Below are positions 12,008 to 39,125 of a DNA stretch of 64,000 nt, in pieces. Under the pieces are notes generated by a model. That model had not been told where the DNA came from, did not search any database, and was given only the letters and a program-made list of their open reading frames with translations. Source of the DNA: Klebsiella sp. BIGb0138 (GTDB lineage: Bacteria; Pseudomonadota; Gammaproteobacteria; Enterobacterales; Enterobacteriaceae); NCBI RefSeq assembly GCF_004342285.1, contig NZ_SMCV01000012.1:1-64000 (forward strand). The letters are read 5' to 3'. Numbering within the stretch: position 1 is the first letter of the stretch; every line of letters begins with the position of its first letter. Position numbers and translations under genes: made by a program.

Positions 12008-12943
12008 TTACTTCACTTCCACCACGTTCAGGCGCAGTTCATCCAGCGGTGTGCTCTCATCTTCCGGCTGCCAGCCCGCAGGCTGTAGCGGGATCTCTTC
12101 ACGGTCAAATGCCAGATCGCCACCGTCAACCACTTCAGAGTGGTGGTTAATGCCTTTAAAGTCGAACAGATTAACGTCGCTAAGATGGGATGGCACCACG
12201 TTCTGCATGGCGCTGAACATGGTTTCGATGCGGCCGGGGTAACGTTTATCCCAGTCGCGCAGCATGTCGGCAATCACCTGGCGTTGCAGGTTAGGCTGTG
12301 AACCGCAGAGGTTGCATGGAATGATCGGGAAACCTTTGGCCTGCGAAAAGCGCTCGATGTCTTTTTCACGGCAGTAGGCCAGCGGACGAATCACGATATG
12401 CTTGCCGTCATCGCTCATCAGTTTCGGCGGCATGCCTTTCATTTTTCCGCCGTAGAACATGTTCAGGAACAGCGTTTGTAAAATGTCGTCACGGTGGTGG
12501 CCGAGAGCAATTTTGGTTGCCCCTAACTCGCTCGCGGTGCGATAGAGGATGCCGCGGCGCAGACGTGAGCAGAGTGAGCAGGTGGTTTTGCCTTCTGGGA
12601 TCTTCTCTTTCACAATACCGTAGGTATTTTCTTCGACAATTTTATACTCGACGCCGAGCTGCTGCAGATATTCCGGCAGAATGTGCTCAGGAAAACCCGG
12701 CTGTTTCTGGTCGAGGTTAACCGCCACCAGCGAGAACGAAATCGGCGCGCTTTTCTGCAGATTGCGCAGGATTTCCAGCATGGTGTAGCTGTCTTTACCG
12801 CCGGAAAGGCAAACCATAATCCGGTCGCCTTCTTCAATCATGTTGAAGTCGGCAATTGCTTCTCCGACGTTACGACGCAGGCGTTTTTGCAATTTATCGA
12901 GGTTATATTTCTCTTTTTTAGTAAGCTCTTGATTTTCTTGCAT
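12008..12943 (-). CDS. ttcA: tRNA 2-thiocytidine(32) synthetase TtcA
   Basis: TtcA makes 2-thiocytidine at position 32 of certain tRNAs, using ATP and an iron-sulfur cluster. The 311-residue product has the PP-loop SGGKDS at 47-52, the cysteine pair C122/C125 (CSLC), and C210/C213 (CNLC), one of which completes the cluster. Length equals that of E. coli. The ATG at 12943 is chosen over one three codons earlier because it matches the known start MQEN. The prophage begins just upstream; the first codons are intact, so the integrated phage supplies or preserves a working 5' end. Its native promoter is probably displaced. Confidence 0.95.
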
Positions 12944-12990
12944 TATTAACATTCTCTAAATCTTAAAGGGGCATATAGGGGGCAAAATGT
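12893..12990. other. Left attachment region of the prophage (attL, approximate)
   Basis: A Rac-type integrase ends at 12992, 48 bp from the ttcA start, so the left junction lies here. In Rac the recombination core covers ttcA codons about 8-16; the same codons here (KKEKYNLDK) are at 12896-12922. The exact core needs the right end of the prophage, outside this window. Confidence 0.65.
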
Positions 12991-12991
12991 T

Positions 12992-14230
12992 TTAAAGCCC
13001 AAGCCGGGAGTTCAACATAGAAACCTGGTCGCCGTTCATCTCTTCTATCCATGTACTATAAACGTCGTACACCATTTGCGCGTTTTCATGCCCCATCTGA
13101 TTGGCTATAAAAGACGGGTTTGCGCCAGCCGTCAGGAGCCAGCAGGCAAAAGTATGCCGCGTATGGTACGGATTCCTGCGGCGAATGCCAGCGCGTTTTA
13201 CTGCAGCTTCCCATCTGCTGCCTATGCTACTGTGCGAGTAGCAGGGTTTTTGCTCGCCTTTCCTTCTCCGCGGCATGAAAACGAATCGCAATTCCTGTTC
13301 CTCGCTTGAACCATATTCCCTGTGGTGAAACGTAATAGTGGATACCGGATGACCAGCCGTCAGTTCATGCTGCGCTTTCAGCGCGTCCAGCGCAGGGCCG
13401 AGCAGTTGAATCGTCCGGTTTCCTGCTGCTGTTTTTGGTGGGCCGAACATGCCGTTCGCTGTCAGATTCCGTCTAACGTGTATCACGCCCTTATCCAGAT
13501 CGACATCCTCCCATGCCAGTGCCGCCAGCTCACCATGCCGCACACCAGAATAGACGGCGAATTTCCACATATTCTGGCTTTGACCACGTTCACTGGCCAT
13601 GAGGGTTGCAAACTCTTCTCTTGTGAGTGGATCCGGCTTAACCCTGGTTTTGCGCAGGCTTTTTACGCCCTCAAACGGTTTATGCTGGATAAAACCGGAT
13701 ATATACGCAAAACTCAAAATAGAACACAGCAAAGAAACATAATTATTGACAGTTGAAACCGTTCTGCCATTTTTATTTTTACGTTTGTTTTTTGAATAAA
13801 AAGTTTCTCCAGTGAGTAATTCATTTCTACAATTAAGTATGTCGCTGTATCCTATAACGTTAAGCATAGTATTTCCGTTCATAATTTTTATTAGCGTATC
13901 AACCTGGGATTTTGTTTTCTTTAAGGTATTGGCGCTGATTTCAGTTTCTTTAAGTTTTAGCCATAGTTCGCACAGTTCAAAAAATGTGCTCACCTGTAGA
14001 GTAGTGTTTATCGCTGCCGCCTTTTTGGATGACGGGAATCGACGACCGTAATCAAACTCTCCCATGCTTATTTCGCTGGTAATTACCGCTCTTAAATTAC
14101 CAGCTTTTTTAATATTGGCGGGGCTTACAATCCACCCCTTTAACACCTCGCGGCAGCGCTTACCTTTATACATAAACCAGACGCATATTCTGTTACCACG
14201 AATCTCTACGCCTGTAGGAAGTGTTGCCAT
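12992..14230 (-). CDS. Prophage integrase, tyrosine recombinase (Rac IntR type)
   Basis: This 412-residue recombinase inserts and excises the prophage at the ttcA site. The catalytic set is visible: R231 (SGVRHGEL), H356 and R358 in HTRHTF, H381 in MGHENAQ, and Tyr388 or Tyr391 as nucleophile. The N-terminal arm-binding domain starts LPTGVEIRG, and much of the sequence matches Rac IntR, including RRRNPYHTRHTFACWLLTAGANP. It is last in the leftward operon, two bases after xis. The N-terminal half is visibly more AT-rich than the host. Confidence 0.95.
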   Translation of the reverse strand: MATLPTGVEIRGNRICVWFMYKGKRCREVLKGWIVSPANIKKAGNLRAVITSEISMGEFDYGRRFPSSKKAAAINTTLQVSTFFELCELWLKLKETEISANTLKKTKSQVDTLIKIMNGNTMLNVIGYSDILNCRNELLTGETFYSKNKRKNKNGRTVSTVNNYVSLLCSILSFAYISGFIQHKPFEGVKSLRKTRVKPDPLTREEFATLMASERGQSQNMWKFAVYSGVRHGELAALAWEDVDLDKGVIHVRRNLTANGMFGPPKTAAGNRTIQLLGPALDALKAQHELTAGHPVSTITFHHREYGSSEEQELRFVFMPRRRKGEQKPCYSHSSIGSRWEAAVKRAGIRRRNPYHTRHTFACWLLTAGANPSFIANQMGHENAQMVYDVYSTWIEEMNGDQVSMLNSRLGL

Positions 14231-19961: not shown

Positions 19962-20120
19962 TCAGGGTTCGTTAGCCATGGCGTCATAATCGCCACAACG
20001 TTTCGAGCAATACGTTCTTTCTCGTCGTACCTGCTGCGCGCCGTGAATGATGAGGATGGTCATTTTTACTTCTTCCCGTTCCTCAATCGGTTTGCGGCAG
20101 TACGCACATTTCTTCTGCAT
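19962..20120 (-). CDS. Small zinc-ribbon protein (YdaE-like)
   Basis: This 52-residue protein has two cysteine pairs, CAYC at 5-8 and CSKRC at about 39-43, which probably bind zinc as a treble-clef or ribbon. AGGAGGAG directly precedes the ATG. Rac carries a comparable zinc-binding protein, YdaE, in the same operon, so the resemblance is both positional and structural. The role is unknown. Confidence 0.7.
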   Translation of the reverse strand: MQKKCAYCRKPIEEREEVKMTILIIHGAQQVRRERTYCSKRCGDYDAMANEP

Positions 20121-20128
20121 TACTCCTC

Positions 20129-20320
20129 CTACATCTGCGCCGTGAATCCGGCAGGGTGCTCTTCCAGCAGTCCTTTAAGTGGGTAACACTCACCTTTTAC
20201 GTCCTGCTCAGCTGCTGCGCTCTGACAGGCCTTCTCACTCTCATACACACCAAGTAAAACTTCCTGCGTACCTCCAACTGTCATGCTGATGGAAAGCACC
20301 AGGGCGAACAGCGAACTCAT
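20129..20320 (-). CDS. DUF1482-like small prophage protein
   Basis: The 63-residue product has a hydrophobic start (SSLFALVLSISMTVGG), then GVYESEKACQSAAAEQ and GECYPL. This pattern fits the DUF1482 family of lambdoid phages (recalled, not searched). The hydrophobic start may be a signal or anchor. Its ATG overlaps the stop of the upstream mini-gene (ATGA), showing translational coupling, and supports this start over an in-frame one 11 codons earlier. Confidence 0.7.
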   Translation of the reverse strand: MSSLFALVLSISMTVGGTQEVLLGVYESEKACQSAAAEQDVKGECYPLKGLLEEHPAGFTAQM

Positions 20321-20430
20321 GACGGGTCGCCTTTCTGTGCGAGCAGATAGCACATCCGGCGGATGAACGCGGTCACTGGGCCTAGTCTGACGGCCTGCTG
20401 ACGAGCGGGTTTGCGTGCGAAATCAATCAT
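20317..20430 (-). CDS. 37-residue basic mini-protein
   Basis: The frame (MIDFARKPARQQ...) is flanked by stop/start overlaps on both sides: its ATG lies within the end of the upstream mini-gene and its stop overlaps the next ATG. The product is basic with an amphipathic middle. The overlaps are the main reason to believe it is translated. Function unknown. Confidence 0.6.
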   Translation of the reverse strand: MIDFARKPARQQAVRLGPVTAFIRRMCYLLAQKGDPS

Positions 20431-20524
20431 TGAAATAACCCCATAGTTCGATGACTAGCACAGTCCAGATTAAGAGCCCGATAAATGCCGAAATGATCAG
20501 GGCTTTGATGCCGTTCTTACTCAT
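20423..20524 (-). CDS. 33-residue single-pass membrane mini-protein, first gene of the PL operon
   Basis: After MSKNGIK, residues 8-30 (ALIISAFIGLLIWTVLVIELWGY) form one membrane helix. GAGG six bases before the ATG at 20524 supports this start over an ATG five codons upstream that has no ribosome binding site. It is the first gene after the leftward early promoter, about 130 nt downstream. Such early mini-proteins in lambdoid phages often act on host functions; that is inference here. Confidence 0.6.
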   Translation of the reverse strand: MSKNGIKALIISAFIGLLIWTVLVIELWGYFND

Positions 20525-20662
20525 TTCAACCTCAGCCATTACGTGGCCAGCGGAACGTTTGAACCTACTGCGCGTTGATAAATCCACCTCATCCCGGTCT
20601 TCGTATGCGCCGGGCCGCTACTTCGTGGGCGTCCTGCCTGGGTGGTTTGTTGTTACAGGATA

Positions 20663-20691
20663 ATTAAACACTTTGTTTATTATCATGTCAA
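20663..20691 (-). promoter_or_regulatory. Leftward early promoter PL
   Basis: On the minus strand TTGACA (20686-20691), a 17-base spacer and TTTAAT (20663-20668) form a strong sigma-70 promoter. The -35, spacer length and -10 are the same as in the rightward promoter at 23242-23270. An operator (20665-20679) covers the -10. It would drive the mini-genes, recE, recT, xis and int. Confidence 0.85.
20665..20679. promoter_or_regulatory. Operator OL1 (TAAAC-ACTTT-GTTTA)
   Basis: A TAAAC-N5-GTTTA inverted repeat overlaps the -10 element of PL. The same pattern occurs at 20711, 23207 and 23254, that is, only in the two control regions. It is the likely binding site of the repressor at 22799-23194 and/or the Cro-like protein. 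Confidence 0.8.
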
Positions 20692-20710
20692 CTAAATGAG
20701 CTTTTAAATA

Positions 20711-20725
20711 TAAACAAAAAGTTTA
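20711..20725. promoter_or_regulatory. Operator OL2 (TAAAC-AAAAA-GTTTA)
   Basis: A second perfect TAAAC-N5-GTTTA site lies 20 bp upstream of the PL -35 element and 46 bp from OL1 start to start. It could allow cooperative or looped binding with the sites near 23207-23268, as between lambda OL and OR. Confidence 0.75.
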
Positions 20726-20802
20726 ATTTTTTGGGGCGTACAAACCTTGGCTGCATCTTTTTAAAGCAGAGAGCGGCTATAAAACCATCAGATAGGGGCG
20801 GA

Positions 20803-20871
20803 CATGGATTACGATGAGGATAAGGCGGGGCTAAAACTCAATGCGTTGGAGCTTCTGTGGTGGATCTGGTA
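20803..20871 (+). CDS. Possible 22-residue peptide
   Basis: A short frame (MDYDEDKAG...LLWWIW) points rightward between the PL operators and the terminator of the minus-strand pair. No clear promoter is seen and the ribosome binding site is weak. It is probably chance and is listed because nothing else occupies about 20730-20930. Confidence 0.15.
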
Positions 20872-20932
20872 GTGGATGATCACTTGGTCGAACAACATAT
20901 GGGAAGTCGGGAACGTCATGGGGAAGAGGGCA

Positions 20933-20960
20933 TAAAAAAACCCGGCACGGTGGCCGGGTT
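20933..20960 (-). terminator. Intrinsic terminator of the DUF3037/HipA-like pair
   Basis: On the minus strand AACCCGGC, a 6-nt loop, GCCGGGTT and then a run of T form a strong terminator 17 bp past the stop at 20977. It separates this lysogenic transcript from the PL control region. Confidence 0.88.
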
Positions 20961-20976
20961 GGATTCATAAACTAAA

Positions 20977-21783
20977 TTACTGAAGCATTGACGCAGCGTT
21001 TAACATCTTTTCATAATAAAAATTCATATCTTCTTTACTGTACGCATTTATAAGGTTATCTGCATGTTTTTCAAGAAGATTTATTTGCTGTTTTGCGGTT
21101 TTTTCTTGTGCTGTAGTTTCAGCTGCATAAATAACAAATGAGTCGATATTATATTTGTAAATTTCACATGCTTTTGAGATTGTTAAAGCACTCACAGCAG
21201 CCTCACCCATTTGTTTTTTAATATTTTCAGAACGGAAATCTAAAGTTTCAGTGAGATGGTATTTGCCATTCTTTAGCAAGAAATCGGCAACTAAGCCTTC
21301 GTCATCGCTTATAGGATAGTTAGCAACAATCTTGTGCTGATAAAGGTCTTCAGAGTATTTGCTAAAGATTCCGTGCTGCATGAAGGTTGACTTTATTTCA
21401 AAGAAAACTTTTCTTTTCAGTTGCTTGTGAGATTGCTTCTGTGGATTTACTAATCTGTTCATCAAATCAGTAATTTTTGTTTCGTAATTATCATTACTTT
21501 GAATGGTAAACATACCAAAAGAAGATAATGATAACGATCCCTTAAAAAGGCACGGAAGAAGTTCAACGTCGTTTATTTTGTGTGACAAATCAAAAAGTGA
21601 GCTAGAAAGATCTTCCAAGTAATTTTGTGAAAGACCTTTATCAATTGCTTTAAGCTTTGAAACTGAATTAAGCATGCGTACGTCTATGTCGGAGTCATGG
21701 TAAACGATCAAGCCAACGTTAATCGTTTCACCTTTCTCAAGATTCGGCGTAACTCTGATTAAGCTGTATTTGAAAGTTTTCAA
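20977..21783 (-). CDS. DUF3037-like protein, partner of a HipA-like kinase
   Basis: The 268-residue protein begins with KYSLIRVTPNLEKGETINVGLIVYH, the hallmark N-terminus of DUF3037 proteins (recalled). The rest is charged and helical, with no membrane segment. Its ATG overlaps the stop of the HipA-like gene by four bases, so the two are translationally coupled. DUF3037 genes are known next to HipA-family kinase genes; no biochemical role is known to me. The codons are much more AT-rich than the flanking phage genes. It sits between repressor and PL in repressor orientation, the place of lambda rexB/rexA, so expression in the lysogen is likely. Confidence 0.75.
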   Translation of the reverse strand: MKTFKYSLIRVTPNLEKGETINVGLIVYHDSDIDVRMLNSVSKLKAIDKGLSQNYLEDLSSSLFDLSHKINDVELLPCLFKGSLSLSSFGMFTIQSNDNYETKITDLMNRLVNPQKQSHKQLKRKVFFEIKSTFMQHGIFSKYSEDLYQHKIVANYPISDDEGLVADFLLKNGKYHLTETLDFRSENIKKQMGEAAVSALTISKACEIYKYNIDSFVIYAAETTAQEKTAKQQINLLEKHADNLINAYSKEDMNFYYEKMLNAASMLQ

Positions 21784-22628
21784 GAGTTTATCTCCAGTCT
21801 TATAGCGTTTATTCGCTCAATTCTTTCCTCACTATCCCACCATTTCAGAAAATATTCTTTATGCATTGGTGGCATCCATGCGACAGGCATAGATTCCAGT
21901 ATATCAGAGATGGTAGCAACTCCAATTTTCTCAATCTTGTCAAGTACTGACAATGCGCACATTCTTAATTCTGGTGTATCGCCGACAAATTGCTTAGCTA
22001 TAGACCAGTTTGTTGATGTGCTTGAATCTGTAGGAAGTGTGTGCGGGGTGCTACGTGGCCAACCGATAACAAAAGAGCTCAAGCTAAAATCGAACGTTTT
22101 TACTATGATGTGACCGCGCGTATTTTCCATGTAAAGGTAATTATTGAGATGGCGATCAATGTTGTACACGAATTGGTCAAAAGCATAAATTGCCCATAGC
22201 TGTTTTTTCAATGACTCAGAGGCGTTCGCCAGCAAATTGATCCATTGCGGGCCGTTAAGTCCTGACTTCCATGCAGAAAACTCAATACGAGAGCCAAATA
22301 CATACTCGCCATCAGCGATACACTTAAGAACCTTACAAACAGGTGTTGCGATCCCACATCTTTCAGCCAAATTTGTGCAAAACCACTCTGCAGCTGGTAC
22401 TTGAGTGGGGTTTTGTACAGGGAAAGGAGGTGCGGCTTTCATGCTTTTAACCGCATACTCCATCTCATCAGTGGCAATAGCAAAGCCAGAAAGATGCACT
22501 GTACCCAAGTTTGACGGAGTATATTCATTGAATTCTAATTCAAATAAACTTCCTTGTTCCGGGTCTGGTTCGCTATTGTTTGGATCTTGTTCTTCTGCCA
22601 TCTGCTTTTTACCCCACAAAGAAGACAT
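21780..22628 (-). CDS. HipA-like protein kinase
   Basis: The 282-residue protein has HipA-type kinase motifs: N156-x-D158-R-H160-x2-N in the catalytic loop (FVYNIDRHLNN) and FDFSLS at 179-184 as the metal-binding DFG equivalent. Lysine 61 in EYAVKSMK may bind ATP. It lacks the N-terminal subdomain of classical HipA (about 440 residues) and fits the short HipA-family group found with DUF3037. HipA kinases phosphorylate proteins, such as aminoacyl-tRNA synthetases, and stop growth; the target here is unknown. GAGG precedes the ATG. A -10-like TATAAA lies about 25 bp upstream, so it may have its own promoter besides read-through from the repressor gene. It is strongly AT-rich. Confidence 0.75.
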   Translation of the reverse strand: MSSLWGKKQMAEEQDPNNSEPDPEQGSLFELEFNEYTPSNLGTVHLSGFAIATDEMEYAVKSMKAAPPFPVQNPTQVPAAEWFCTNLAERCGIATPVCKVLKCIADGEYVFGSRIEFSAWKSGLNGPQWINLLANASESLKKQLWAIYAFDQFVYNIDRHLNNYLYMENTRGHIIVKTFDFSLSSFVIGWPRSTPHTLPTDSSTSTNWSIAKQFVGDTPELRMCALSVLDKIEKIGVATISDILESMPVAWMPPMHKEYFLKWWDSEERIERINAIRLEINS

Positions 22629-22710
22629 ATAAACCTCATGAAATTAAAGTAACTTTATAATATTATTAGCTTTTTCTATTCCAGTCTCTCATGGCGAGCA
22701 TAGCCAAGTT

Positions 22711-22744
22711 ATCTCCCCACGCTTCATGTGCGTAAGCAGGGGAG
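22711..22744. repeat. Long imperfect hairpin between repressor and kinase gene
   Basis: TCTCCCC-ACGC and GCGT-AAGCA-GGGGAGA can pair around a short loop. It lies between the repressor stop and the kinase gene and may attenuate read-through from the repressor promoter. No T-run follows. Confidence 0.4.
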
Positions 22745-22798
22745 AGCTAGTTTGTTAGGTTTCGAAATGTGTGGTCGAGCAGAGCCTAACTAGGGTAG

Positions 22799-23194
22799 TT
22801 ACTCCGAATCACCCTTAATTCGCCGCCCCATGTACTTCGCGTACAGCTCGTCGAGCTCTTTCAGGCGTAGTGACACGACCCGCAACATGTTCTGTTGTTC
22901 TTCCTCGTTCGGCAATTGGTTGTAGAGCTCCAGTAGGCGACGTTCGTCTGGTCTTAACCCGTCTTTAGGATCCACATCCTGACCTAAAACCCACTCAAGG
23001 CTGACCCCAAGCGCATCGGCGAGTTTTATCGCGGAGCTTTTACCTATCGCACCCCGGACAAACCAGTTGTTAACAGATTGCGAGCTCACACCGCAGATCC
23101 TCGCTATATCCGCTTTAGATATGCGCTTTTGCTCGATGATTTCGTTAAGCCGCTGTACCTGCGGGTTATCTGCTTGGTGCGTATTTTTTCTCAT
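22799..23194 (-). CDS. Prophage repressor (XRE-type HTH, no peptidase domain)
   Basis: The 131-residue product has a helix-turn-helix at about residues 21-65 (KADIARICGVSSQSVNNWFVRGAIGKSSAIKLADALGVSLEWVLG). A short helical tail follows. There is no S24 peptidase domain, so it cannot be inactivated by RecA-stimulated self-cleavage as lambda CI is. It corresponds to RacR of Rac by position and size class. It probably binds the TAAAC-N5-GTTTA operators. The candidate promoter (23203-23230) places the transcript start within a few bases of the ATG, which has no ribosome binding site, so the mRNA may be leaderless. Confidence 0.85.
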   Translation of the reverse strand: MRKNTHQADNPQVQRLNEIIEQKRISKADIARICGVSSQSVNNWFVRGAIGKSSAIKLADALGVSLEWVLGQDVDPKDGLRPDERRLLELYNQLPNEEEQQNMLRVVSLRLKELDELYAKYMGRRIKGDSE

Positions 23195-23202
23195 ATATCA
23201 CG

Positions 23203-23230
23203 ATTTTAAACTAAATGTTTACCATCTCAA
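23203..23230 (-). promoter_or_regulatory. Repressor promoter (PRM-like)
   Basis: On the minus strand TTGAGA (23225-23230), 16 bases and TAAAAT (23203-23208) form a reasonable promoter with the operator at 23207-23221 filling the spacer. Transcription would start near 23196, only about two bases before the repressor ATG. Confidence 0.6.
23207..23221. promoter_or_regulatory. Operator OR (TAAAC-TAAAT-GTTTA) over the repressor promoter
   Basis: A third TAAAC-N5-GTTTA site lies between the -10 and -35 of the repressor promoter. Binding here would shut off repressor synthesis, a natural task for the Cro-like protein or for autoregulation. Confidence 0.8.
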
Positions 23231-23241
23231 CATTCATAAAG

Positions 23242-23270
23242 TTGACATTAAAATAAACATAATGTTTAAT
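23242..23270 (+). promoter_or_regulatory. Rightward early promoter PR
   Basis: TTGACA (23242-23247), 17 bases and TTTAAT (23265-23270) mirror the PL promoter. An operator (23254-23268) overlaps spacer and -10. It drives the ydaS/ydaT-like genes and the replication genes. Confidence 0.87.
23254..23268. promoter_or_regulatory. Operator OR (TAAAC-ATAAT-GTTTA) over PR
   Basis: The fourth TAAAC-N5-GTTTA site covers the downstream half of PR, in the same relation to the -10 as OL1 at PL. Occupancy by the repressor would block early rightward transcription. Confidence 0.82.
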
Positions 23271-23297
23271 TTACGGGCAACCTTAATGGAGTGGTTT

Positions 23298-23531
23298 ATG
23301 AACGCACTTGAAAAAGCCATACATATCGCCGGAGACGCAACAAAGCTGGCGGAAAAATTAGATGTTTCGTCAATGACAGTTAGTCATTGGAAACATCGTC
23401 ATGCCGGTGTTGTGCCGCAAGGGCGGGTTTTCCCGATTTTTCACGCAACAGGCGTCACCCCGCACGAACTTCGCCCGGATCTCTATCCGAATCCCAATGA
23501 TGGTTTGTCTTCGCAAGAGTTGGGAGGCTGA
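23298..23531 (+). CDS. Cro-like regulator, YdaS type
   Basis: The 77-residue protein (MNALEKAIHIAGDATKLAEKLDVSSMTVSHWKHR...) has the YdaS-type helix-turn-helix. Proteins of this family act as Cro at the start of the PR operon in Rac-like prophages. The ATG at 23298 has GGAG seven bases upstream; an in-frame ATG four codons earlier lacks one. It is divergent from the repressor gene across the operator region. It probably binds the same operators. Confidence 0.85.
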   Translation: MNALEKAIHIAGDATKLAEKLDVSSMTVSHWKHRHAGVVPQGRVFPIFHATGVTPHELRPDLYPNPNDGLSSQELGG

Positions 23532-26032: not shown

Positions 26033-26368
26033 ATGGCCAGAGCATTATCAGTTGCAGAGCGTCGGGAGTACGTCCGTGCGGTTATTAGGATCACCAGACA
26101 TCAGGGGCGTCTGACAGCCAACGACGCAATGAAAAAACTGGGCCTGTGCCGCAGCACTGTCCAGAAATACTTCCTCGATGCGGAAGCTACCGGCGAAGTA
26201 GTTCGCCACGGGCGGCTGGGCTTATTCCGCGATCAGCGCGCCATCATCGACTTTGACATGAAGCGTTTTGGCCTGGTGCCGAAAGTTGCTGTTGGGATGA
26301 ATTACAGCCTGCTTGGCAGTCCTGTTTTTCAGCGAGTTTTAGATGTTCAGGAGGCTATTCATGGCTAA
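26033..26368 (+). CDS. DUF977-like winged-helix protein
   Basis: The 111-residue protein has a helix-turn-helix in ITRHQGRLTANDAMKKLGLCRSTVQKYFLDAEATGEVVRHGRLGLF, typical of the DUF977 phage family as I recall it. It probably binds DNA. It starts seven bases after the loader gene and its end overlaps the next gene by eight bases. Confidence 0.75.
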   Translation: MARALSVAERREYVRAVIRITRHQGRLTANDAMKKLGLCRSTVQKYFLDAEATGEVVRHGRLGLFRDQRAIIDFDMKRFGLVPKVAVGMNYSLLGSPVFQRVLDVQEAIHG

Positions 26369-27146
26369 GAATTCAATCGATGTATACGGTGCCAGCGGCA
26401 AAACAAACGTGCTCAATTTCGAGCCTGAAAACCTGCACCTGGTCACCGATAAGACCCACCCACTTTACGATGAGCGTGTACACCTGCCTATCGAGGAAGG
26501 GATGGTACTGAACATTGCGGAGCTGGGTGTACTGGAGCCGATCATCGTCTGGAAAGACCCCGAATTGGGGCTCACCTGCGTAGTTGTTGGCCGTCAGCGC
26601 GTTAAACATACCCTGGAGGCAAATAAACTCCGTCTGAAAGAAGGCAAAGACCCACTGCTTGTACCTGGAGTCGTTAAGCGCGGATCAGCAAATCAGATGG
26701 CTAAATACATGGTCAGTGAAAACGAAATTCGCCGACCTGATACACCGCTTGGCCGGGCTAAAAAAATGTCAGACGCGCTCGACCGCGGGCTCGATGAGGA
26801 CGACATTGCGGTGTTGTTTGGCTGCAGCGTTCAGACCGTTCGAGCAACGCTCTCCCTTCTCGATGCCACTCAGGCCGTCAGGGAAGCGGTAGAGGCTGGC
26901 ACAGTTACCGTTACCCAGGCACGTCAGCTGGCATCACTGAAACCCGAAGAGCAGCGGGAAAAAGTGAAAGAGATTGAATCTGCGACCGCTGGGACTACCG
27001 GCCATGAAAAAGCCAAGCGTCAGCGCGCCGTGCTTGGCGAAACTAAGTCTCGTCTCAAATCACGCAAAGAAATCACAAAAGCCCTTGAAGCTGCCAGTGG
27101 TGAATACGCTGATGCACTGCGCTGGGTGCTCGGGGAGGTTGTATGA
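26361..27146 (+). CDS. ParB/Spo0J-like domain protein
   Basis: The 261-residue protein has a ParB-like N-terminal domain (NIAELGVLEPIIVWKDP, VVVGRQRVKHTLEAN) with the GRQR form of the G-E/R-x-R nucleotide-binding motif. A helix-turn-helix follows (DDIAVLFGCSVQTVRATLSLLDA). Such proteins bind DNA and some hydrolyse CTP or nick DNA. The ATG at 26361 follows CAGGAGG. No ParA partner is seen, so a partition role is unlikely; a replication or regulatory role is more plausible. Confidence 0.78.
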   Translation: MAKNSIDVYGASGKTNVLNFEPENLHLVTDKTHPLYDERVHLPIEEGMVLNIAELGVLEPIIVWKDPELGLTCVVVGRQRVKHTLEANKLRLKEGKDPLLVPGVVKRGSANQMAKYMVSENEIRRPDTPLGRAKKMSDALDRGLDEDDIAVLFGCSVQTVRATLSLLDATQAVREAVEAGTVTVTQARQLASLKPEEQREKVKEIESATAGTTGHEKAKRQRAVLGETKSRLKSRKEITKALEAASGEYADALRWVLGEVV

Positions 27147-28121: not shown

Positions 28122-28378
28122 TGGAGCCTTCACTGGAATATGCCTGCAAACGCATTCAGGAATTGGAAAGCCTACTGCTGGTGGACGTGCCTGAAACTGT
28201 ATGGCCAGCTGAAGTAGCGATGGTCCTGTCAGAAGTAGAAAACGCCGGGGAACTCCCGGCACACCACCAGCGCCGCCTGCAGCACCACATCAACCGGATG
28301 TGGCTGGAAAAAATGCCAGTACCGTCAATTATCGCCGCGGCTCGTTCGCTGGCCTGCGCCATGGAGAAATACGCGTGA
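28121..28378 (+). CDS. Phage early-region small helical protein
   Basis: The 85-residue protein begins with GTG overlapping the previous stop (TAGTG). It is helical with several His (PAHHQRRLQHHINRMWLEKM). Its stop overlaps the GTG of the methyltransferase gene. Function unknown. Confidence 0.6.
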   Translation: MEPSLEYACKRIQELESLLLVDVPETVWPAEVAMVLSEVENAGELPAHHQRRLQHHINRMWLEKMPVPSIIAAARSLACAMEKYA

Positions 28379-30453
28379 GAGAGAGCGAAATCATCGTTGA
28401 TAACTTTGCTGGCGGCGGCGGCGCCTCAACGGGAATCGAGCTGGCGATAGGGCGCAGCGTGGATATTGCTATAAACCACGATCCCAATGCTGTCGCGATG
28501 CACACCACTAATCACCCCGACACGCTGCATTACTGCGAGTCGGTTTATTCGGTTCGTCCGAAAGTTGCGACCGCCGGCCGCCGGGTTGGGCTGGCATGGT
28601 TTTCACCAGACTGCCGTCACTTTTCAAAGGCGAAAGGGGCCAAGCCGGTAGAAAAGGCGATTCGTGGGCTGGCGTGGATCGTTATCCGCTGGGCGCTTGA
28701 TGTTGGCCCGCGGGTAATGATGCTGGAAAATGTCGAAGAGTTTAAAACTTGGGGGCCGCTTCTGGCGGCAGAAATGCGCCCAGATCCAGACCGCGTCGGC
28801 GAAACATTCCTGGCATTTGTCGGCATGCTGACAACCGGGATCCCGGCGAACCATCCGGCGCTGGCCGAATGCTGCGAATTTCTGAATATTTCGCTGGATA
28901 GCGAGGATGCAGCACGGTTGGTAAAAGGTCTGGGATATATCGTTGAGTATCGCGAACTGCGCGCATGCGATTATGGTGCGCCGACCATCCGTAAGCGGTT
29001 CTTCATGGTGATGCGCCGGGACGGGAAACCGATAGTCTGGCCGGAAGCCACCCATGGGGATCCGAAGTCTGCCGACGTGCAGGCGGGCAAGCTGTCACCG
29101 TGGCGAACAGCTGCGGAATGTATAGACTGGTCTATCCCCGCGCCGAGCATATTCGACCGTAAAAAGCCGTTGGCAGAGAACACGCTCAAACGCATTGCCC
29201 GCGGCATACAGCGGTTCGTTATCGACAGCGCTTCGCCGTTCATCGTGAAGTGCAACCACACAACGACCAAAGGAAAATATGACTGTTTCCGGGGGCAGTC
29301 GCTGGCGGATCCGCTGCAGACGATTACCAAAACCCACGGCTTTGGGGTGGCGGTGCCGCACCTGACAAAATTCCGCACCGGCGCCACCGGGCAGCCAGTC
29401 ACCGAACCGGTACCGACAGTGACCGCCGGCACGTCAAAACGCCCGGGTGGTAATGGGCATGCACTGGGTATTGTTGAGGCAGCTCTGGCTCCGTTCCTGG
29501 CTGGCAATGGCGGCAGCGAGTACCAGGCAAAACCGCGCCCTATGGATAAGCCCGCTCACACTATCCTGAAGCAATCGCGAGCCTGTTTAGTTGCGCCAGT
29601 GATTGCACGTCAGTTCGGCGCCAGCGTAGGGCATCGGGCGGATGAGCCTAGCGCAACAATCACCGCGGGCGGCGGCGGTAAATCACAGCTGGTTGTGCCG
29701 ACGCTCATTCAAATGGGATACGGAGAACGGCCCGGCCAGGCACCTCGCGTGCCAGGACTGGATAAGCCTCTGGGAACTGTCGTTGCTGGAGGCGGAAAGC
29801 ATGCCGTTGTCGGGGCGTTCCTGGTGAAACACTACGGCGGGAATTATCAGGGCGCCGGCGTGGGGCTGGATGAGCCAACTCACTCGGTGACGACGGTTGA
29901 TCATCATGCGGTCGTAGCGGCACACCTTATGGTAAACAACACAGGCCATCCCGGCGGTTCTGTAGAGTCCCCGGCGCATACTGTTACGACAGGCAATCAC
30001 CACGCGGTTGTTGCTTCTCACCTGGTCAAGCTGCGTGGAACCTGCCGTGACGGCCAACGCGCTGACGAACCTATGCCGACCATCACCGCCGGCGGCCAGC
30101 ATGTGGGAGAGGTTAAAACGACACTGGCGGTCGAGGACTACGACGAAGAGCGCGCTCAGCAGGTGCTGGCATTTCTGCGGGAATACTGCGGGGAAGACTG
30201 CACCGGGCTGGTGGATATTGACGGAGTGACGTTCCGAATTGTTGATATTGGGATGCGCATGCTGCAACCGCATGAGCTCTATCGCGCGCAGGGCTTCCCT
30301 GAATGGTACATCATCGACCGGGACTACCGAGGCGTGAAGTACGCCAAGGATAAGCAGGTAGCGCGCTGTGGTAACGCCGTCCCACCGCCATTTGCTGAGG
30401 CGTTGGTGAGAGCTAATTTGCCGGAGATGTGCCAGGCGAGGGAGGCTGCATAA
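28375..30453 (+). CDS. DNA cytosine-5 methyltransferase with internal repeats
   Basis: This 692-residue enzyme transfers a methyl group from S-adenosylmethionine to cytosine C5. Visible motifs: I (DNFAGGGGASTGIE, near 9-22), IV (FSPDCRHFS, catalytic Cys near 80), VI (ENV, 118-120), VIII (IRKRFFMV, about 205) and X (GNAVP, about 666). It is about 300 residues longer than common bacterial enzymes because residues 312-590 hold eight repeats of the type D-E/K-P-x-x-T-I/V-T. The GTG at 28375 overlaps the previous stop (GTGA) and starts right before motif I. In phages such enzymes protect DNA against host restriction. No cognate endonuclease is nearby. Confidence 0.88.
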   Translation: MRESEIIVDNFAGGGGASTGIELAIGRSVDIAINHDPNAVAMHTTNHPDTLHYCESVYSVRPKVATAGRRVGLAWFSPDCRHFSKAKGAKPVEKAIRGLAWIVIRWALDVGPRVMMLENVEEFKTWGPLLAAEMRPDPDRVGETFLAFVGMLTTGIPANHPALAECCEFLNISLDSEDAARLVKGLGYIVEYRELRACDYGAPTIRKRFFMVMRRDGKPIVWPEATHGDPKSADVQAGKLSPWRTAAECIDWSIPAPSIFDRKKPLAENTLKRIARGIQRFVIDSASPFIVKCNHTTTKGKYDCFRGQSLADPLQTITKTHGFGVAVPHLTKFRTGATGQPVTEPVPTVTAGTSKRPGGNGHALGIVEAALAPFLAGNGGSEYQAKPRPMDKPAHTILKQSRACLVAPVIARQFGASVGHRADEPSATITAGGGGKSQLVVPTLIQMGYGERPGQAPRVPGLDKPLGTVVAGGGKHAVVGAFLVKHYGGNYQGAGVGLDEPTHSVTTVDHHAVVAAHLMVNNTGHPGGSVESPAHTVTTGNHHAVVASHLVKLRGTCRDGQRADEPMPTITAGGQHVGEVKTTLAVEDYDEERAQQVLAFLREYCGEDCTGLVDIDGVTFRIVDIGMRMLQPHELYRAQGFPEWYIIDRDYRGVKYAKDKQVARCGNAVPPPFAEALVRANLPEMCQAREAA

Positions 30454-37413: not shown

Positions 37414-37836
37414 ATGTCAGAAGCCGCAGCAGAAGTTTTTCAGGATGCATGGCCTGAATTTTTTCCTAAAGGCGTACCACCGAAGGCAGCCGAAGATGCT
37501 GAGGGGGAATTTTTTCGGTTAGTTCGTGTAAGTCCCCCTTCTGCACAATGTTTTCTCTCGACGCATGAAGAGTACCCGAATCGCCATAAAAAATGTAAAG
37601 GTGAGGCTTTAATATGTATTTTTGGAACCTCTTTCTTTTCTGAAATGAGAGGTGCCAATGATGCTAAAGCCAAATTTCCTGAAGCATTGGGCGACCGTTT
37701 GGTTGCTAAAGGTCAGGTAACCCCATTAATGGGTGTTATGAAAAAAACTTTTGCAGATCCTGCTCATTACACAATTTGGCTTAGAACTAATAGCCATGTA
37801 CATGAACACTTCGAATGTGTGGGAGAAGGCGAATGA
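37414..37836 (+). CDS. Accessory cassette gene 1, unknown function
   Basis: The 140-residue protein starts MSEAAAEVFQDAWPEFFP; an ATG three codons earlier is also possible. It has a compact alpha/beta look (FFRLVRVSPPSAQCFLSTHEEYPN, ALICIFGTSFFSEM, HYTIWLRTNSHVHEHFEC), with several Cys and His near the ends that might bind metal. No signal peptide or membrane segment is visible. Its stop overlaps the start of the next gene (ATGA), so both products are made together. Codon use and base composition are far more AT-rich than the phage backbone. I do not recognise the family. Confidence 0.7.
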   Translation: MSEAAAEVFQDAWPEFFPKGVPPKAAEDAEGEFFRLVRVSPPSAQCFLSTHEEYPNRHKKCKGEALICIFGTSFFSEMRGANDAKAKFPEALGDRLVAKGQVTPLMGVMKKTFADPAHYTIWLRTNSHVHEHFECVGEGE

Positions 37837-39125
37837 GTAATATCTTCCTCCCCAAAACTATGATGGGAACATTAGTTTATAAAAGAGTCTATGAATTCTT
37901 TGAAGAGCCTCGTTTCTTTTCAGTAGAAAATGAAGTTGGCTCTTTATACGTAGTGTATTGGATCTCTGAAGATGAAAATTCAGATAGTTGGTTTATCATA
38001 CCGGTATCCCCAACTAAACTTGAGCTAATTGAAAGAAAGAGAATAGATATTCACTCGGCTCTAACTGCGCATGAGCAAAGTTTTTTTTACAAGGTACAGG
38101 CTCCTTACAATAGAGATGAGACTCCCGCTTGGGATGTTTTGTATGCAGAAGACTTAAATAATTATAAATTACCTGCTAGTGGATTATTCATTAGTTCGGT
38201 TGTTCCCGTTCTTGGTAATGGACGAATTGGCGCACCAATAAAATACTCCACGCATGAAATACATTTGGAAAAAAGCGCTAGGAAAAGTGAAAGTAATCTT
38301 GTTTTAGGCAATGTTTCAAGCGTATGCGACAGATTTAGCGATCTATACAACAGTCTTTTGGATTTTGGCGGCCTTAAAGACAAATTACGTCCAGTTGATG
38401 CTCGCCCAGGGTCGTTCATAATCTCATTTCAGGCAGAGAAGCTTTCTTTGTTTGAAGAATTGTTAAAATCTTTAAGCTCTTTGATAGAAGCAAGAGCTAA
38501 TGTAATTGATTTCATTAATGAAAAAGGGATTGATATTCAGTCACTATCAAACCTTTTTCAGGCAGTTGTTTCTTCCGGTACAAACATGGAGCTCAGAAGC
38601 AACGAGACTGGTGAATTGATTTTTGTATTGACAAAGGCTGGGGCTGATTTTTATCTAAAAGATATCAATAAGTTATCAATGTTATCTGTTAGCGGTCACC
38701 AGATACCGCAAGCCGATACCTTAGAGCGAGTTTTTAATATCGTTGAAGTAAAATGGCGTGGCGAACCTTGCAGTGAGTTCAATACAGGTCTGCAGGAGCG
38801 CCACATATATTATTATATTCATGCTGCTAAGGTATTAGGATTCCTTGATAATAATAGTAAGGTAACATCAGTTGGTCAGCAGTTAATTCAATCAGAAGAC
38901 GATGTTAAACTTAAGATTGCGGCGAGATGTTTTGAAACCAGTCATATAGGTTGGGCTTGGATAAATTGGGCGGGTGTTGAAAATCTCTCTCAGTTAGAAC
39001 CGGAAACTGCAGAAGGCTTTCTTTTAGAGCAATGCCATTCTTTAAGTGCCGAAACCGTGTCTAGGAGGTCTAGAACCATAAGACATTGGTGTAAGGTGCT
39101 AAAAGGGCATTACACGCCCCTTTAA
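37833..39125 (+). CDS. Accessory cassette gene 2, DUF6575-like protein
   Basis: The 430-residue protein starts with GTLVYKRVYEFFEEPRFFSVENEVGSLYVVYWISEDE in outline, which resembles the N-terminal domain named DUF6575 (from memory, not searched). The middle is helical (about 155-240). The C-terminal part (RHIYYYIHAAKVLGFLDNNSKVTSVGQQLI) looks like a winged helix seen in restriction- or defence-linked proteins. No catalytic motif is evident. It is cytosolic by prediction. With gene 1 it forms a self-contained AT-rich pair between the lysis and packaging genes, the typical place for moron or anti-phage genes. Confidence 0.7.
   Translation: MSNIFLPKTMMGTLVYKRVYEFFEEPRFFSVENEVGSLYVVYWISEDENSDSWFIIPVSPTKLELIERKRIDIHSALTAHEQSFFYKVQAPYNRDETPAWDVLYAEDLNNYKLPASGLFISSVVPVLGNGRIGAPIKYSTHEIHLEKSARKSESNLVLGNVSSVCDRFSDLYNSLLDFGGLKDKLRPVDARPGSFIISFQAEKLSLFEELLKSLSSLIEARANVIDFINEKGIDIQSLSNLFQAVVSSGTNMELRSNETGELIFVLTKAGADFYLKDINKLSMLSVSGHQIPQADTLERVFNIVEVKWRGEPCSEFNTGLQERHIYYYIHAAKVLGFLDNNSKVTSVGQQLIQSEDDVKLKIAARCFETSHIGWAWINWAGVENLSQLEPETAEGFLLEQCHSLSAETVSRRSRTIRHWCKVLKGHYTPL

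Follow-up and report, generated by a model that had tools for sequence, protein, structure and literature searches.

A divergent HipA-like kinase and DUF3037 gene pair in the rexAB position of a Klebsiella prophage, a probable toxin-antitoxin module of abortive infection

Pairs of genes encoding a HipA-like kinase and a DUF3037 protein are listed by PADLOC as PDC-M66, and the 2025 work of Brenes and Laub on HipAD is, by its title, reportedly a study of prophage defence. Here we report such a pair from Klebsiella sp. BIGb0138 (contig NZ_SMCV01000012.1), where it lies between the repressor gene and the PL promoter of a prophage; the window is the full stretch of 64,000 nt that was analysed, and positions are counted from its first letter. 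The two-gene system DS-6/HipAD from an E. coli collection likewise combines a HipA-like kinase with a DUF3037 protein; a catalytic mutant of DS-6A lost defence, and AlphaFold3 predicts a DS-6A/B complex (PMC13092281; this and the other papers cited are represented by excerpts). DS-6B has DUF1829, whereas none of 33 DUF3037 proteins of the window's branch matched that family in Pfam at E 0.1. Retron-Sda1 contains the same gene pair, but there beside a retron; when its HipA was deleted, defence against Bas51 was lost, and deletion of its DUF3037 gene was toxic (PMC12548924). The statement in the initial annotation that no function has been described for such a pair is out of date, since the distantly related PDC-M66, DS-6/HipAD and Retron-Sda1 pairs defend against phages, HipA being the toxin and DUF3037 its neutraliser. 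As regards position, lambda RexAB and BstA of Salmonella BTP1 (PMC8585504) are also defence genes downstream of a repressor but have other effectors and no demonstrated sequence relation to the pair. In Pseudomonas putida, a system of RexAB type has been described that follows a CI-like repressor (PMC12894663), and the cI-n region is a published hotspot of mosaic diversity (PMC8585504, citing Degnan 2007).

The pair is probably a divergent relative of the HipA-DUF3037 modules (PDC-M66/HipAD type) that occupies the place of rexAB in a prophage; by analogy with its tested relatives, it is likely to act as a toxin-antitoxin module in abortive infection. The kinase carries the motifs N156-I-D158-R-H160-L-N-N163 and F179-D-F-S182, and residues K61, E81, D158, N163, D180 and S182 are invariant in 33/33 aligned sequences; judged by these residues, the active site of this branch is intact. 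The partner matched the Pfam family DUF3037 above its cut-off (33.0 vs 22.6 bits), and PADLOC PDC-M66B matched it at 8.4e-8. HipA_2 (24.9 vs 27 bits) and HipA_C (24.5 vs 30.5) matched the kinase below the Pfam cut-offs, and in E. coli it is annotated as 'hypothetical protein'. Its profile aligned with that of the classical kinases (97.2%, E 4.6e-11), which have ADRTLT and IDHN where the window's branch has DRHxxN and FDFS. A scan of the pair against NCBIfam matched nothing relevant, and a sequence search for relatives of solved structure gave nothing useful for the kinase, the DUF3037 protein or the kinase profile; the kinase was placed by fold comparison only. In contrast to HipA/HipB, HipBST and CtkA, no HipB- or HipS-type partner was found; the DUF3037 partner gave no Pfam match to a helix-turn-helix (HTH) family, and the HTH gene upstream is a phage repressor with a head that varies independently of the constant pair, which does not agree with a HipBA system.

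The kinase stop codon and the TTG start codon of the DUF3037 gene share the four bases TTGA, and both genes are AT-rich (GC 0.423 for the kinase and 0.338 for DUF3037, vs 0.522 for the whole window). The ratios of nonsynonymous to synonymous substitution (dN/dS) were 0.008 (kinase) and 0.018 (DUF3037) against the copy in locus L005, and 0.025 and 0.039 against that in L001, where dS is close to saturation; both genes look to be under purifying selection.

The pair occupies the position of lambda rexAB, between repressor and PL, on the repressor strand and with its own predicted terminator (Table 1). The palindrome TAAACNNNNNGTTTA occurs in four exact copies in the window (0.02 expected), which bracket the repressor and the pair with two copies per side, and one copy per side overlaps a matching promoter. 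The pattern TTGACA-N17-TTTAAT has only two sites in the window, on opposite strands, and none in 100 shuffles; from these patterns we read the sites as PL/OL and PR/OR. The right operator at 23207 sits within the PRM-like site, the -10 element of which lies 8 bases from the repressor start; the promoter scan as a whole yielded 9 sites vs 8.7 in shuffles, a total at chance level, and no same-strand site in the 170-base gap ahead of the kinase. The terminator scan gave 8 sites overall vs 5.6 (standard deviation 2.5) in shuffles. No Rfam family reached its gathering score over window positions 20000-23500. RexA and RexB families were absent from the Pfam, PHROG, NCBIfam and PADLOC matches of both proteins, the presence of RexA/RexB models in each library not being confirmed. 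What the initial annotation had described, two overlapping AT-rich genes in repressor orientation, a kinase with NxDRHxxN and FDFS motifs, a DUF3037 partner, a terminator and the rexAB position, was thus borne out, the terminator as a predicted hairpin with T-run.

Table 1. Features of the prophage immunity region and the integrase in the window.
Feature	Position	Strand	Basis
Integrase	12992-14230		profile scan
PL promoter, pointing away from pair	20663..20691	-	pattern search, TTGACA-N17-TTTAAT
Operator, left, overlapping PL	20665..20679		palindrome TAAACNNNNNGTTTA and promoter pattern
Operator, left, second copy	20711..20725		palindrome TAAACNNNNNGTTTA
Predicted terminator of repressor-kinase-DUF3037 unit	20939..20960	-	hairpin (20960-20939) with 8 pairs, 6 G-C, then T-run
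DUF3037 protein, likely antitoxin, perhaps sensor	20977..21783	-	open reading frame, 268 aa, TTG start; phrog_5137
HipA-like kinase, likely toxin/effector	21780..22628	-	open reading frame, 282 aa, ATG start; phrog_3162
CI/DicA-like phage repressor	22799..23194	-	131 aa; HTH_3, Phage_CI_repr; DicA-like below cut-off; phrog_8, phrog_4
PRM-like promoter, predicted driver of repressor and pair	23203..23230	-	TTGAGA-16-TAAAAT, 10/12 matches
Operator, right, at PRM	23207..23221		palindrome TAAACNNNNNGTTTA
PR promoter	23242..23270	+	pattern search, TTGACA-N17-TTTAAT
Operator, right, overlapping PR	23254..23268		palindrome TAAACNNNNNGTTTA and promoter pattern
Cro/YdaS-like regulator, divergent from repressor	23298..23531	+	YdaS_toxin 3e-13; P22_Cro 1.6e-4, below cut-off; phrog_35; scanned from second codon

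A protein search at E <= 0.001 recovered 53 kinases and 45 DUF3037 proteins, from Gammaproteobacteria wherever a name was given. On viral contigs an intact HipA gene stood directly upstream of DUF3037 at 47 of 49 loci, and all 36 viral HipA loci had DUF3037 directly downstream; 35 of these 36 contigs were also among the 49, and only intact kinases could be found in the kinase query because its patterns contain the catalytic motif. The kinase was present at 7/7 loci on genome contigs. The branch is rare in the window's own family (taken to be Enterobacteriaceae): of 392 genomes, 3 have the kinase, the window's own among them, and 5 match the DUF3037 profile of the branch, two of them weakly. 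In the same 392 genomes DUF3037 in general exceeded its Pfam cut-off in 13, each time with a HipA-like open reading frame (ORF) upstream (13/13). In one of these (L110) the kinase frame is short (profile 1-205 of 240) and ends about 90 bases before DUF3037; of the ten kinases outside the window's branch, nine matched HipA_2 above the cut-off and one (L113) reached 25.3 vs 27 bits. Six weak Pfam matches to DUF3037, below cut-off and in frames of 135-156 aa from genomes of 400-700 kb, were dropped as not DUF3037. The co-occurrence proposed as a check in the initial annotation is strongly supported by these counts, and in the loci surveyed the pairing appears near-obligate.

The two viral exceptions were L046, with an element that reads as IS3-like between the repressor and a DUF3037 gene without start, and L050, with a kinase that lacks its middle. 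In these loci (L046 6851-7971, L050 3986-4289) the kinase is replaced by the IS3-like element or has lost its core, and DUF3037 is mostly or fully retained. In protein P0007 the catalytic-loop arginine is changed, and the DUF3037 gene that follows is broken by a shift of frame. An intact kinase lacking DUF3037 was not encountered. As far as such comparisons reach, this natural breakage counts for the toxin-antitoxin reading.

A phage repressor lies upstream at 44 of the 49 viral DUF3037 loci, in line with the immunity-region placement that the initial annotation had suggested surveying. Repressor ORFs were chosen by eye across all frames and scanned at 38 loci standing for the 44, where they matched phrog_4 (38/38), HTH_3 (35/38) and Peptidase_S24 (24/38). 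The gap from repressor to next gene is mostly <=350 bases (453-693 in L056, L060 and L050); in L046 it holds the IS-like element. The palindrome TAAACNNNNNGTTTA was searched in 15 loci: it occurs exactly four times, with two copies ahead of the repressor and two beyond the pair, in the 7 with the same HTH head (L005, L012, L013, L015, L021, L025, L033) and is absent from the other 8 (L014, L027, L023, L034, L039, L128, L001, L003), the heads being grouped by sequence reading. Another palindrome is common to both sides in L014 and L027, L034 has a shared site with 5-base arms and L023 has none (six loci scanned, arms of 5-6 bases, without chance control). The operators on both sides follow the repressor head; the pair thus lies within operator brackets and is retained on an immunity switch.

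The identity matrices of kinase and DUF3037 correlated with r = 0.953 in a set of 33 loci, obtained by thinning 44 distinct pairs to <95% kinase identity, a value reached in 0/2000 permutations. Since shared ancestry alone can yield a high r, the contrast with the repressor matters: for 30 loci of our choice the correlation was 0.963 between kinase and DUF3037 but 0.32 between repressor and kinase and 0.33 between repressor and DUF3037. In L005 and L014 the pair is 99% identical and the first 70 repressor residues 48%; in L036 and L043 the repressor is 96-98% identical and the pair 51-60%. By these identity patterns, the pair is shown to move as a unit independent of immunity type. A kinase that adjoins the repressor and is probably co-transcribed with it might act on lysogeny itself, by phosphorylating the prophage repressor or an antirepressor, and a prophage kinase-phosphatase module governing lysogeny and defence has been published (PMC11341870). 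Such a role is very unlikely in view of six locus pairs in which identity is 96-100% for the kinases and for the DUF3037 proteins vs 35-57% for the first 70 repressor residues, and of the five viral loci without an upstream repressor (L028, L030, L032, L048, L051).

In E. coli the window-type pair was found in 24/5426 genomes and the classical pair in 283/5426, and the DNA that lies behind the window-type pair, ahead of kil-gam-bet-exo, was found in 965/5426. We viewed 17 such places (L001-L003, L131-L144), picked by us from listings. One identical repressor, WP_001295669.1, precedes six different cargoes: the window-type pair (L001, L002), a classical HipA kinase with DUF3037 protein (L132), and four more, of which L137 has two small ORFs, L138 three ORFs, L141 an MqsA-family antitoxin together with SecB and one further ORF, and L144 a DUF6932 pair. 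The cargoes behind other repressors included an ASCH protein plus another gene (L136) and RuvC with a Ser/Thr kinase (L139). The classical E. coli pair (WP_000389051.1 and WP_000210934.1) has the same gene order and slot as the window's branch, and in L132, behind the same repressor as in L001, its DUF3037 protein is longer (WP_250880567.1). From this gene content, the stretch from repressor to kil-gam-bet-exo is a site for exchangeable cassettes. In L131-L144, eight kinds of non-HipA cargo occupy 10 of the 14 places and the classical pair the other 4; some of this cargo bears toxin-antitoxin or kinase names.

An addiction module that retains the prophage in the cell, without effect on other phages, would share the toxin-antitoxin logic: co-expression with the repressor would punish prophage loss, and the genes overlap, with the 4-base overlap retained at 38/54 loci. 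We give this explanation little credence, for the tested relatives defend against phages and the same slot carries unrelated cargo, in part with toxin-antitoxin or kinase names.

In the preferred reading, abortive infection by a toxin-antitoxin pair, PRM would transcribe repressor, kinase and DUF3037 together in the lysogen, and the 4-base overlap would couple translation of the latter two. The kinase would be toxic and arrest growth by phosphorylating a protein of the host or of a phage, and DUF3037 would neutralise it until another phage infects. The defence or toxin function proposed in the initial annotation gains support from the kinase-dependent defence of relatives and the toxicity seen in Retron-Sda1. 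Of the roles it had offered for DUF3037 (sensor, regulator or substrate), that of substrate loses ground to a neutralising partner, which is most likely because Retron-Sda1 is toxic when DUF3037 is deleted. Superinfection would release the kinase, perhaps through binding of foreign DNA by a PD-(D/E)XK-like domain, or alternatively through loss of the shared transcript.

Such a PD-(D/E)XK-like fold is predicted for the C-terminal half of DUF3037 (residues 124-267), in a fold comparison that barely covered residues 1-123. The predicted half contains the alpha-beta-beta-beta-alpha-beta core, with D/E167 in 33/33 and E179 in 32/33 proteins, but the D...(D/E)xK catalytic motif is incomplete, with L, I or V at the usual lysine position in 33/33. 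The literature examined, to which subscription papers did not belong, names no nuclease-like fold for DUF3037 in the excerpts available, and the word 'endonuclease' has 0 occurrences in the main text of PMC12548924. A more specific proposal, which we hold only tentatively and consider rather unlikely, is that DUF3037 is both antitoxin and DNA sensor, a catalysis-dead nuclease-fold domain that would recognise invading phage DNA and free the HipA kinase, a RexAB-like alarm with its dose set by the repressor promoter. The predicted fold would also suit the reverse assignment, in which DUF3037, as a nuclease or DNA binder of PD-(D/E)XK-like type, would be the effector and the kinase would switch it; given the incomplete motif and the toxicity of DUF3037 deletion in Retron-Sda1, this is improbable. 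DUF3037 as toxin was likewise disfavoured.

Several points weigh against the interpretation as a defence module of PDC-M66/HipAD type. The best PADLOC match of the kinase is PDC-M03A (1.5e-5) and not PDC-M66A, which matches at 0.0027 only, and the DS-6 and Sda1 proteins were likened to the pair by description only. The branch's E. coli copy (L001) and the classical E. coli pair share the slot at only 28% (kinase) and 20% (DUF3037) identity, and the DUF3037 profiles of the two branches align over residues 4-138 only, for which reason the two branches may use the C-terminal half differently. The breakage argument comprises three cases, with a kinase search blind to non-intact kinases; neither protein was matched at 1e-5 in 50,697 phage genomes; and the branch is known here from sequence alone.

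The element in the window is, by its gene content, a prophage, with integrase, exonuclease VIII and RecT-like genes, terminase, portal, head and tail genes; one of ten ORFs scanned in it (37815-39122) had no match at 1e-10. A ttcA-like ORF, read from the ORF only, adjoins the integrase, and the two (12008-14230) are reminiscent of the Rac attachment site. The integrated prophage also encodes a ParB-like partition protein (phrog_1033, 26343-27146), and a 717-aa ORF (28300-30453) resembles, on reading, a cytosine-5 DNA methyltransferase whose middle segments are repeated. The phage record closest to the window at the repressor (L004) has IS1 and other ORFs in the pair's place, and three plasmid records carry a distant kinase (31-41% identity). 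ORF reading of ten loci in wider context placed the window, L123, L127, L128 and L130 in immunity regions, L125 and L129 in late or end regions of other phages, and L122, L124 and L126 in chromosomes. L122 and L124 are classical pairs with the same neighbours in two genomes of the same genus, beside anaerobic ribonucleotide reductase-like ORFs.

The pair type and the slot were already known; what is new is that a divergent branch occupies the rex slot and that the C-terminal half of DUF3037 is predicted to have a PD-(D/E)XK-like fold. The results suggest a candidate function for PHROG families 3162 and 5137, both listed as unknown, and point to a branch of HipA-DUF3037 defence that evades current annotation, with a kinase that falls below the Pfam cut-offs and bears the name 'hypothetical protein' in E. 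coli. From the predicted nuclease-like fold of DUF3037 comes a testable idea for phage sensing, and the locus lends itself to the study of how a prophage whose immunity operon includes a likely toxin outlives its own induction, when the shared promoter shuts. One repressor with six cargoes, and one cargo with many repressors, form a natural series for testing what prophages retain in the rex slot.
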